Shown: positions 41,050 through 43,876 of the stretch, one piece after another | Numbering within the stretch: position 1 is the stretch's first letter | How the letters are laid out: every line of letters starts with the position of its first letter | Assembly: GCF_040782645.1 (NCBI RefSeq) | Contig: NZ_CP160403.1 | Location: 2,914,001-2,978,000 of the forward strand | Reading direction: 5' to 3' | DNA: 64,000 nt | Source of the DNA: Streptomyces sp. HUAS ZL42 | Lineage (GTDB): Bacteria > Actinomycetota > Actinomycetes > Streptomycetales > Streptomycetaceae | Position numbers and translations under genes: made by a program | The notes under the pieces: model-generated | Databases searched by the model: none | Seen by the model: the letters and a program-made list of their open reading frames with translations, nothing else | What the model was told of the DNA's origin: nothing

Positions 41050-42657
41050 GTGGACCCGGTGATCATCGTCGGAGCGGGGCCCGTGGGGCTCACGCTCGCC
41101 TTGGCGCTGGCGCGTCAGGAGGTCCCGTCGGTCGTTCTGGACGAGGGCCCGGGCAAGGACGAACCGCGACTCGCGCGCACGGTCGTACTGCGTGAGGACA
41201 CCGCGGCCCTCATGGAACGGCTGACGGCGTTGCAGCTCGCCGAGGCCGGGGTCCGCTGGGCCGGATGGCGGTCGATGCGGCGCAGGCAGGTGATGCGCGA
41301 GATCACCTTCGACGCCTCCGAGCCCGCCCCCCTGCACATCGCCCAGCACGTGCTGACCGGCGCCCTGCGCGCGGCTCTCGCCGGCGAGCGGCTCGTCGAG
41401 GTCGCCGTGGACAGCCGCCTCGACACCATCGAGCAGGAACGCTCCGGCGTCATCGCCCACACCCGCGGTCCCAAGGGCACGTGGTGGCGCGGCAGTTACC
41501 TCGTGGGCTGCGACGGCCCCCGCTCCACGGTGCGCAAACTGCAGGACATCCGCTTTCCCGGCCGTACGTCGGTGGAGCGGCACGCCGTCGCCGCGCTGCG
41601 CACGGAACTTCCGTGGACCGACGAGGCGTTGCTCCATCGGACGCCGCCGTGGCGGACCTCCGGTCCCTCCGCCGGGGAAATCACCGGACGTCCGCTGCCG
41701 AACGGCGTCTGGCGCCTGGACTGGCTGCTGCCGCCCGGCAAGGATCTGGTCACACCCGAGCTGCTGGTGGCCAACGTCCGCGAGACGCTCGCGGGCTGGA
41801 GCGGCGGGCCCACACCGCCGTACGAACTCCTCGACACCGGCGTCCACACCGTCCACCACCGCCTGGCCCGCCGCTGGCGGGTGGGCCGGGTCTTCCTCGC
41901 CGGGGACGCGGCGCACCTGCTCGGCGCGCTCGGCACCCAGGGGCTCGACGAGGGCCTCAGGGACGCCGACAACCTCGCCTGGAAGCTGGCCGCGGCCTGG
42001 CACCACGGCCCGCACGAGGGGCTGCTCGACAGCTACCAGGCCGAGCGGCGCGCGGCCGTCTCCGCCCGGCTGCGCGCCGCCGACCAGGTGCTGCCGCTGC
42101 TGCGCGGCGGCGGGGGCCTGAGGACCTACGTCCCCGGTTCGGCCCGCGGTCACGACGCGCTGCTCACCGACGGCCACCTGGGGCGCGGCCCGCTGGGCAT
42201 GCCGGGGACGTACGCCGACTCACCGCTGGCGCCCCGGCACCTCGAGGCCGAGGTGCCGGTGGACACGCCGCCCGGCGCGGCGGTCGCGGACGTGCGGGTG
42301 ACGGCCGAGGACGGCTCCTTCGTACGGCTGCGGGAGCGGCTCGGGCGCGGTGCGCTGCTCGTCGTACTGATCGCGCCGGGCACGGGCGTGTGGGAGCGCA
42401 AGCACTGGGTGGGCGCCGGGCTCATGCCCCGGCTCGCGGCCGCGGTGACCGCGCTGCCGCACCCCGCGGAGCTGCTGGTCGCGGAGAACTACCCGGGTGC
42501 GGCCGCCCACACCGTTTTGTTGGTACGACCGGACGGTCACCTGGTGACCGCGCTGAGCGGGGTGCGTCCCGCCGACCTGTACACCGCGGCGGAGGCCGCG
42601 CTGGGTGGACCGGCGAAGGCGGAGGCCGAAGCCGGGGCGGGCTCCGCGGTGAAGTGA
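41050..42657 (+). CDS. FAD-dependent aromatic-type monooxygenase
   Basis: 535 residues of the PheA/TfdB (p-hydroxybenzoate hydroxylase fold) group. It has the N-terminal FAD loop IIVGAGPVGLTLALALAR, the DG motif VGCDGPRSTVRK and the GD motif VFLAGDAAHLLGALGTQGLD then EGLRDADNLAWKL. A C-terminal thioredoxin-like domain (~residues 400-520) is typical of antibiotic-tailoring and phenol hydroxylases. The GTG at 41050 has GGAGG 9 nt upstream. It appears to be a single gene; the substrate is unknown. Confidence 0.88.
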   Translation: MDPVIIVGAGPVGLTLALALARQEVPSVVLDEGPGKDEPRLARTVVLREDTAALMERLTALQLAEAGVRWAGWRSMRRRQVMREITFDASEPAPLHIAQHVLTGALRAALAGERLVEVAVDSRLDTIEQERSGVIAHTRGPKGTWWRGSYLVGCDGPRSTVRKLQDIRFPGRTSVERHAVAALRTELPWTDEALLHRTPPWRTSGPSAGEITGRPLPNGVWRLDWLLPPGKDLVTPELLVANVRETLAGWSGGPTPPYELLDTGVHTVHHRLARRWRVGRVFLAGDAAHLLGALGTQGLDEGLRDADNLAWKLAAAWHHGPHEGLLDSYQAERRAAVSARLRAADQVLPLLRGGGGLRTYVPGSARGHDALLTDGHLGRGPLGMPGTYADSPLAPRHLEAEVPVDTPPGAAVADVRVTAEDGSFVRLRERLGRGALLVVLIAPGTGVWERKHWVGAGLMPRLAAAVTALPHPAELLVAENYPGAAAHTVLLVRPDGHLVTALSGVRPADLYTAAEAALGGPAKAEAEAGAGSAVK

Positions 42658-42775
42658 CCGTACCCCCCGTCACTGTGCTGTCCGCATGGTTTACGTTGAG
42701 TTGACCGGTCTGCGCCCTCGTGGTGTACTCCGGATCGTGACCGACACCTGTGTGCGCCTGTGGCGGAGGGTCCAT

Positions 42776-42823
42776 ATGGACCTCGTCCGCTATGCGGGCT
42801 GCGTGTGTCGTCCGTCCTGCTGA
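42776..42823 (+). promoter_or_regulatory. Cysteine-rich leader peptide ORF upstream of cysteine dioxygenase
   Basis: The ORF encodes MDLVRYAGCVCRPSC, 15 residues with three Cys, the last directly before the TGA. GGAGG stands 6 nt before the ATG, a better ribosome site than many genes here. It ends 92 nt before the dioxygenase GTG. Ribosome stalling at Cys codons when cysteinyl-tRNA is scarce would be a direct sensor for a cysteine-degrading operon. Cys-rich upstream ORFs are known before sulfur genes in actinobacteria; this one was found by reading and is not confirmed. Confidence 0.68.
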
Positions 42824-42914
42824 ATTCGCATCCCTTTTCTCCTCCACGCTCTTTCCGCGCGCCTCCGACGCGCCGCCGAGCGTGCCCACGCGAGCACTCA
42901 CCAGGACGGTATCC

Positions 42915-43442
42915 GTGTCTGTCTCCCCCTCCTTGTCCACCGCCGCCCCCGCTCCCACCCAGGCGGAACTCCTCGACTTCGTACGGCGTACAGCCGCCGA
43001 CTCCGAACTGATCGCCTCGCTTCCGCTGGACCCCGAGGGCCGCACCTGGGTGCGTCTCGAAGGGCCCGGCGGCAGCGAGGCCTGGCTGATCGGCTGGCCG
43101 CCCGGCACCGGCACCGGCTGGCACGACCACGCCGAATCGGTGGGTGCCTTCCTCACCGCCCGGGGCGAGCTCACGGAGAACTCGCTCGCCGCCCGGCTGC
43201 CCGGTGACGGCTGGAAGACCCTGGAGCTGACGGAGGGCGTGGACCGGGAGCGGCGGCTGCCGGCCGGCGAGGGCCGCTCCTTCGGCCGCCACCACGTCCA
43301 CGAGGTCCTCAACCGGTCCACCGACCGGCACGCGATCTCCGTCCACGCCTACCACCCGCCCCTGCCGCTGATCCGCCGCTACAGCCGTACGGGGCAGGTA
43401 CTTCGTCTGGAGCAGGTCGAGCGTCCGGAGGACTGGCAGTGA
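42915..43442 (+). CDS. Cysteine dioxygenase-type cupin
   Basis: Oxidises cysteine to cysteine sulfinate with mononuclear iron. 175 residues. The three-His site is WHDHAESVGAF (two His) and a later His in FGRHHVHEVLN. Other family blocks are GWPPGTGTG and GRLLPAGEG-like RRLPAGEGRSF. The GTG at 42915 has AGGA 8 nt upstream. The next gene, a rhodanese, overlaps by four bases (GTGA). The Cys-rich leader ORF lies 92 nt upstream. Confidence 0.87.
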   Translation: MSVSPSLSTAAPAPTQAELLDFVRRTAADSELIASLPLDPEGRTWVRLEGPGGSEAWLIGWPPGTGTGWHDHAESVGAFLTARGELTENSLAARLPGDGWKTLELTEGVDRERRLPAGEGRSFGRHHVHEVLNRSTDRHAISVHAYHPPLPLIRRYSRTGQVLRLEQVERPEDWQ

Positions 43443-43876
43443 GCGGGGCGGTCGGACGACTGGGAGACGAAGGAGTGGGCGACGTGGCGGAACGGCCGGT
43501 CGGCATAGACGAGTTGCTGGAGCGGGTCCGGGCGGGGTACGCGCGCGTGGAGGCGCGGGAGGCGTACGACGCCGCCCGGGCAGGTGCGGCTCTCCTGGTC
43601 GACATCCGGTACGCCGCCCTGCGCGAGCGGGACGGCCTGATCCCCGGCGCCCTGGTCGTCGAGCGCAATGAGCTGGAGTGGCGGCTCGACCCCCAGGGCA
43701 GCCACCGCGCTCCCGAGGCCACGCGCCACGACCTGCGTGTCGTGGTGATCTGCAACGAGGGCTACGCGTCGAGTCTTGCGGCCGCGTCCCTGCACCAGCT
43801 GGGGCTGTACCGGGCCACGGACCTGGTCGGCGGGTTCCAGGCGTGGAAGGCTGCGGGACTGCCGGTGACGTCGTAG
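43439..43876 (+). CDS. Rhodanese-like sulfurtransferase
   Basis: 145 residues, one rhodanese domain. The active-site Cys is in VVVICNEGYASS and the fold blocks VDIRYAALRERDGLIPGAL and GLYRATDLVGGFQAWKAAG are clear. The GTG overlaps the dioxygenase stop and has GGAGG 7 nt upstream. With the dioxygenase it forms a sulfur-oxidation pair: one removes cysteine, the other probably handles sulfane sulfur. Confidence 0.9.
   Translation: MSGAVGRLGDEGVGDVAERPVGIDELLERVRAGYARVEAREAYDAARAGAALLVDIRYAALRERDGLIPGALVVERNELEWRLDPQGSHRAPEATRHDLRVVVICNEGYASSLAAASLHQLGLYRATDLVGGFQAWKAAGLPVTS

Follow-up and report, generated by a model that had tools for sequence, protein, structure and literature searches.

A conserved cysteine-rich leader peptide and a predicted translational switch upstream of a cysteine dioxygenase–rhodanese operon in Streptomyces

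Why an operon that degrades cysteine should be preceded by a short, cysteine-rich open reading frame (ORF), and in which direction such a leader would act, is the question raised by a locus in Streptomyces sp. HUAS ZL42. The window analysed here is a 64,000-nucleotide stretch of this genome, and the features described in it lie on the forward strand. A type I cysteine dioxygenase (CDO) is encoded from a GTG start at 42915..43442 (PF05995, 166.7 bits, E 4.3e-49), followed by a rhodanese-domain protein at 43439..43876 (PF00581, 50.7 bits, E 2.7e-13), which overlaps the CDO stop by 4 nt. The first product matches CDO chains in the PDB down to E 2.1e-11; rat-type CDO alignments begin after the Arg of cysteine-specific dioxygenases, and the three alignments seen were to other chains. 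CDO enzymes with proven activity are found in S. coelicolor. A close association with a second gene is common, as a same-strand neighbour lies no more than 150 nt from CDO in 99 of 110 loci.

Conservation of the upstream ORF was assessed at 133 Streptomyces CDO loci, consisting of 80 named records, 30 loci from genus genomes and another 23 stretches of those genomes. The named records are the best 80 of 505 relatives, and the sample leans towards close kin; the 30 loci, with the window's own among them, were drawn from 61 genus genomes, 53 of which carry CDO. A full leader stands upstream of CDO in 131 of the 133 loci. Most of these (130) match the motif W[RK][RK]VH.DL and form the basis of most per-codon counts, and one more, HMDFFRYAGCVC at L089, was missed by the motif because DF replaces DL. 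The two exceptions are L141, where no leader was found before CDO, and L055, which has lost the promoter and the first half of the leader and keeps only the 3′ half. At L055, unrelated DNA (about 2300-2420) takes the place of the lost part, ATGGACCTC onwards and the stem involving the CDO Shine–Dalgarno sequence (SD) remain, and the junction looks like a mobile-element boundary. In-frame conservation of the ORF and its Cys codons in related species, on which an earlier note on this DNA had staked its proposal, is therefore what the 131 loci display, and its central idea of a conserved Cys-rich leader peptide that precedes the CDO–rhodanese operon, and controls it or is placed to do so, is borne out. 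Among loci of other genera in the same family that have a closer CDO, a recognisable leader is present in 22 of 31 (21, together with L194, where it lies further upstream).

The conserved frame comprises 28 codons, MTDTCVRLWRRVHMDLVRYAGCVCRPSC, at 42737..42823, with a GTG start and a TGA stop. The earlier note had described its 3′ half, a 15-codon ORF at 42776..42823 reading ATG GAC CTC GTC CGC TAT GCG GGC TGC GTG TGT CGT CCG TCC TGC TGA. This Cys-rich sequence is present as described, but the start assigned to it does not stand, since the conserved frame begins 13 codons upstream at the GTG at 42737. The ATG at 42776 is not the general start: among the 130 Streptomyces leaders it is replaced by CTG in 8 and by GTG in 4, and many other genera have CTG at this position. 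Codons 5′ of 42776 are conserved equally with those 3′ of it (Trp9, Arg10, Val12 and His13 in 130/130 each), and the stretch earlier taken for an excellent ribosome site, GGCGGAGG, encodes Trp-Arg-Arg inside the 28-codon leader. With an ATG that is not conserved and a conserved start 13 codons upstream, a 15-codon start with its own ribosome site was rejected. The distance from the leader stop to the CDO start, earlier given as 92 nt, is 91 nt (42824-42914).

Upstream of the leader lie a −35-like TTGACC (42701..42706), an instance of a conserved TTGAC-type hexamer, and a −10-like TGTACT (42724..42729) 7 nt before the start codon; a strict consensus promoter scan called no promoter at these two elements. 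A T-n-n-A-C/G-T hexamer precedes the in-frame start by 7 nt in 121 of the 130 loci, by 6 nt in 6 and by 9 nt in 1; in the other 2 none was recognised. Behind this hexamer the start codon is GTG in 96 loci, ATG in 31 and TTG in 1 (128/130), and in 126 of these 128 a TTGAC-type −35 stands 17 or 18 nt from the −10. Because the start sits 7 nt past a conserved −10-like hexamer, the mRNA is probably leaderless, starting at the GTG of the 28-codon ORF. In S. coelicolor, about 21% of mapped start sites are reported to yield leaderless mRNAs (PMC4895711).

The 28-residue peptide (42737-42820) matches the NCBIfam model NF042934 (cis_reg_atten, putative leader peptide), with a score of 37.1 bits against a cut-off of 27, and residues 6-28 (42752-42820) score 38.4 bits. 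Against NF042933, the Ms5788A Cys-rich leader, the scores of 17.9-19.2 bits fall below the cut-off of 45. Seven NF042934 matches occur in the genome, the CDO leader included, and the other six precede a PLP-dependent enzyme, two NMT1-type binding proteins, a nitrite/sulfite reductase, a flavin reductase and a tandem rhodanese; the ORF of the PLP-dependent enzyme (L113) begins about 400 nt beyond its leader, past another ORF. These genes appear to be of kinds that commonly act in sulfur uptake and cysteine synthesis, which makes a catabolic CDO target exceptional. The CDO leader shares with the other members the core R-x-H-x-D-L-x-R...C and a UGU codon at His+11, but adds Cys22 and ends in CVCRPSC rather than SAIC. 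In a leader before a tandem rhodanese (L119, 1483-1567; MKRQADLTKRRAVDLCRVAAMLCRTTL), Ala replaces the usual His and the TGT distance is kept. The genome that holds the window also carries a second CDO_I family gene (L243, 5747051-5747431, minus strand, 66.8 bits), upstream of which a motif search found no such leader.

Three Cys codons lie near the leader stop, conserved without forming one continuous run. Cys22 (TGC, 42800..42802) is Cys in 129 of the 130 Streptomyces CDO leaders (TGC 123, TGT 6), and Cys28 is the least conserved of the three (119/130). Cys24 (42806..42808), the His+11 residue, is invariant and is encoded by TGT in all 130. Other genera use this TGT in 29 of 29 CDO-linked leaders. 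It is also present in all 34 NF042934 leaders that were read at 36 loci, a set that includes 3 CDO leaders and in which other Cys positions are TGC 30 times and TGT 5 times; L119, one of the two loci missed by the motif, has TGT at this position by eye. The bias between His+11 and other Cys positions corresponds to a Fisher p of 1e-14, a value that ignores relatedness. As a peptide-only sensor would treat UGU and UGC equally, this restriction points to decoding. RNA structure offers a further reason for the codon, since the third base of UGU is predicted to be paired with a mean of 0.98 in the 130 CDO leaders and of 0.60 after a change to UGC (60 loci). Pairing alone was rejected as the cause, because the mean is just 0.53, with a wide spread, in 31 non-CDO leaders; pairing may help to set UGU in CDO leaders but leaves the family as a whole unexplained. 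A UGU-only signature at one Cys position could mark such leaders in other genomes.

A link between these codons and the dioxygenase gene is suggested by the predicted fold. The CDO SD, CAGGACGG at 42902..42909, is the exact reverse complement of CCGTCCTG at 42812..42819, a candidate anti-SD inside the Pro26-Ser27-Cys28 codons. The same SD octamer is found in 123 of the 130 loci, with GGACGG in 4 and CAGGAACGG in 3, and in 107 the spacing between SD and start codon is 5 nt; an exact complement of at least 8 nt between the SD and the leader end, CCG TCC TG(C), exists in 103. The stem is extended by an inner arm TTCGC just past the stop codon (42825..42829), which pairs with GCGAG at 42890..42894 (GCGAA in most relatives), its pairs being present in 71, 92, 100, 99 and 100 of 100 non-redundant loci. 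When each locus was folded over the stretch between the GTG region and the CDO start, 118 of 130 gave a predicted SD:anti-SD pairing probability above 0.5 (median 0.995), so that in these loci the SD would be sequestered, in a manner dependent on codon choice, by leader sequence that a stalled ribosome could cover. Synonymous recoding that kept the peptide, with codon frequencies drawn from five of the window's genes, lowered the mean pairing from 0.90 (60 real loci) to 0.33 (480 recodings), which argues that the pairing is not a mere by-product of the peptide. Pro26 is CCG in 115 of 121 leaders and never CCC, a codon that makes up 45% of Pro codons in the five-gene sample; the Arg25 codon varies freely. 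After removal of the leader, the SD is still paired elsewhere, with a probability above 0.5, in 113 of 130 loci. Within the leader itself, the ViennaRNA minimum-energy structure of the window's sequence contains a predicted hairpin at 42760..42793 with a GGUCC-AUAU-GGACC core, whose codons GUC and GAC are kept in 130/130 and 128/130. Leader codons 3-4, CGACAC (42742-42747), can also pair with GUGUCG around Cys24 (42805-42810), which would fold almost all of the leader ORF into a single long hairpin upstream of the SD stem.

The SD varies so little that its stem shows only weak covariation, and a test by permutation was negative: among 21 distinct arm pairs, 141 of 168 cells are paired, permuted arm pairs give a mean of 140.0, and 1643 of 5000 permutations reach the observed value. 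RNAalifold applied to 100 non-redundant loci found conserved, nearly invariant pairs and little covariation. Leader pairs are lost without a matching SD change in L013, L059, L128 and L138, and L133 and L135 carry the altered leader codons of L126 and L134 yet have the usual SD. Outside the genus, CCGTCCCG occurs with TGGGACGG in 3 genomes of one genus (U-A to C-G), and CCGTCCTG with CGGGACGG in 2 genomes of another (U-G). At L198, an unrelated SD is predicted to pair with the leader's own Cys codons in a helix of 9 pairs; shuffling the leader segment gave as many in 118 of 5000 trials, and this single supporting case is suggestive only. Genus searches for further relatives of L198 (1/2 genomes) and of the CCGTCCCG/TGGGACGG group (3/3) yielded no additional cases. 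Folding of CDO-linked leaders outside Streptomyces paired the SD with the Cys-to-stop segment in 8 of 24 and not in the other 16. The other NF042934 leaders tested differ in that CDO-type pairing of the SD with the last codons is not consistent among them: by a crude rule a start could be picked in 19 of 34 non-CDO leaders, and the share of SD pairing that falls to the Cys-to-stop segment ranges from 0 to 0.51.

The explanation that best fits the locus as a whole, held at a probability of about 0.55, is that the 28-codon leader controls CDO–rhodanese translation by translational attenuation. With no ribosome near the leader end, the Pro26-Ser27-Cys28 codons would pair with the CDO SD and keep the gene off; a ribosome dwelling with the Cys24 UGU in its A site would cover the anti-SD and open the CDO start, and a ribosome terminating at the leader UGA would do likewise. 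The ribosome footprint usually ends some 12-13 nt 3′ of the first base in the A site. With the UGU at 42806 in the A site its reach is to 42818-42819, the end of the anti-SD, and at Cys22 just to 42812-42813. The median energy needed to open the SD over the 130 loci is 12.5 kcal/mol in the free RNA, 8.8 with a ribosome at Cys22, 6.9 at UGU and 6.9 at the stop, and the Cys22 and UGU values differ by more than 1 kcal/mol in 73 of the 130. In the window's own sequence a stall at either codon opens the SD equally (6.8 and 6.9 kcal/mol), and a cost of about 7 kcal/mol remains with the ribosome at UGU. The presence of a translational switch is considered likely on this evidence.

The direction of control is a separate matter. 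Since a ribosome at UGU or at the stop covers the anti-SD, stalling should switch CDO on, and if ribosomes stall at UGU when charged tRNA-Cys is short, low cysteine would raise CDO translation. This sign would be that of the biosynthetic leaders in the same family. The earlier note had expected the opposite sign for a degradative operon, and this anatomy speaks against that expectation. Given a switch, the low-cysteine-on sign is slightly favoured, and it is paradoxical, as inducing a cysteine-degrading enzyme at low cysteine makes little metabolic sense. The opposite sign is possible should plentiful cysteine be what arrests the ribosome, or should Cys22 be the dominant stall site.

Both conditions belong to a possible but doubtful alternative in which the same RNA switch is turned on by high cysteine. 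By one route, entertained as a tentative idea, the conserved nascent peptide would be a cysteine-responsive arrest peptide, much as TnaC is with tryptophan: abundant cysteine would cause a pause between UGU and stop, uncover the CDO start and so have the excess removed. By the other, scarcity would hold ribosomes at Cys22, short of the anti-SD, and only plenty would let them reach UGU or the stop. High-cysteine induction fits metabolic logic, and the amino-acid conservation of WRRVHMDLVRYAGCVC is strong beyond what counting Cys would need; the near-invariant Cys22 generally opens the SD less than UGU does, and the 19 non-CDO leaders with a picked start do not consistently pair the SD with the region from Cys to stop, a layout unlike that of CDO. 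A peptide-only sensor, however, has no need for UGU over UGC at His+11, a choice kept across leader types, while L198 has the layout without Cys22 and the equal opening by Cys22 and UGU in the window's own sequence does not favour the second route. Were the cysteine-arrest reading true, both sides of cysteine balance would fall to one leader family, and the site of RNA pairing would set the sign of control.

An action on transcription rather than on CDO translation is unlikely. In that case the leader would govern Rho-dependent or intrinsic termination in the 91-nt gap, a notion to which the C-rich, G-poor composition of roughly the first 25 nt past the leader stop lends itself (nt 6-30: C 0.52, G 0.19; 130 loci), and Rho was raised for mycobacterial cys leaders by Seliverstov et al. 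2005 (PMC1262725). The region 42650-42960 contains zero terminator-like sites, on which ground a classical intrinsic attenuator was rejected, and the codon-level constraint seen on the SD and its complement would not be needed for Rho. A known Rfam element was likewise rejected for the leader and gap, a covariance-model scan of 42600-43000 having given 0 matches up to E 1. It is improbable, too, that leader translation merely keeps the CDO start open, with no cysteine sensing and incidental Cys codons: a terminating ribosome does open the SD equally with one at UGU, but the invariance of Cys24, the retention of Cys22 in all but one of 130 leaders, the family-wide UGU and the sulfur-related gene types behind the genome's other leaders go against it. 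Very improbable is a model in which translation of a 15-codon ORF begins at the ATG at 42776 from a dedicated ribosome site and the regulatory sign is a separate one. A GGAGG does lie 5-10 nt before that ATG, and L055, with its upstream half gone, still has ATGGACCTC and the 3′ half; the replacement of the ATG by CTG in Streptomyces leaders and many other genera, and the conserved start upstream, weigh against it.

Translational attenuation of the CDO operon has counterparts among known leaders. In erm-type systems a stalled leader ribosome frees a sequestered ribosome site, as would happen in the CDO model; there the signal is an antibiotic, whereas here it would be a cysteine-related stall. 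TnaC, which like the CDO leader stands ahead of an amino-acid-degrading operon, senses free tryptophan through arrest of its nascent chain and works by way of Rho; for the CDO leader both features would be hypothetical. Canestrari et al. 2020 reportedly dealt with the Cys-rich leaderless short ORFs of mycobacteria. Such ORFs are described by Shell et al. 2015 (PMC4633059), one of them preceding the rhodanese gene cysA2, and Smith et al. 2022 (PMC9094748) cite the Canestrari study for the cysteine response of mycobacterial short ORFs. The CDO leader resembles them in being short, Cys-rich, conserved, located at an operon 5′ end and probably leaderless too, and differs in that its Cys codons are not one run and its target is a cysteine-degrading dioxygenase. 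For Mycobacterium, P. acnes and B. longum, Cys leaders were predicted by Seliverstov et al. 2005, who give their mode of action as unknown (PMC1262725). These leaders, found upstream of cys genes, likewise have Cys codons near the stop and no terminator; they differ in preceding biosynthetic genes, and the passages that describe them name no CDO (PMC1262725). If the proposed attenuation is right, a cysteine-degrading operon is under the same leader family as sulfur-assimilation genes throughout Streptomyces, and the mode of action, which the passages of the 2005 study on cysteine leaders of actinobacteria did not settle (PMC1262725), would be an explicit RNA switch that can be put to the test. 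It also poses a puzzle of sign, that of starvation-type control of a catabolic enzyme versus cysteine-induced arrest.

Variants of this arrangement were observed in more distant loci. In another genus of the family (L149, L150, L151, L152 and L162), CDO leaders end in CVCTAAR, and their Cys-codon region GUGUACGG can pair with a post-stop CCGU-CAC segment, to which the leader 5′ start GUGAACG can also pair in some of the five; the SD lies inside a local hairpin, a different switch design. Outside the family, a CDO-family gene that is 39% identical (L183) is located behind an NF042934-like leader, LRLHVDLRMTASALCPCTSV. A divergent CDO (about 36-43% identical) in a further genus (L204 and L206-L209) follows a leader of the form CRLHVDLRRQAS(D/S)(M/I)CAC, with TGT at His+11.
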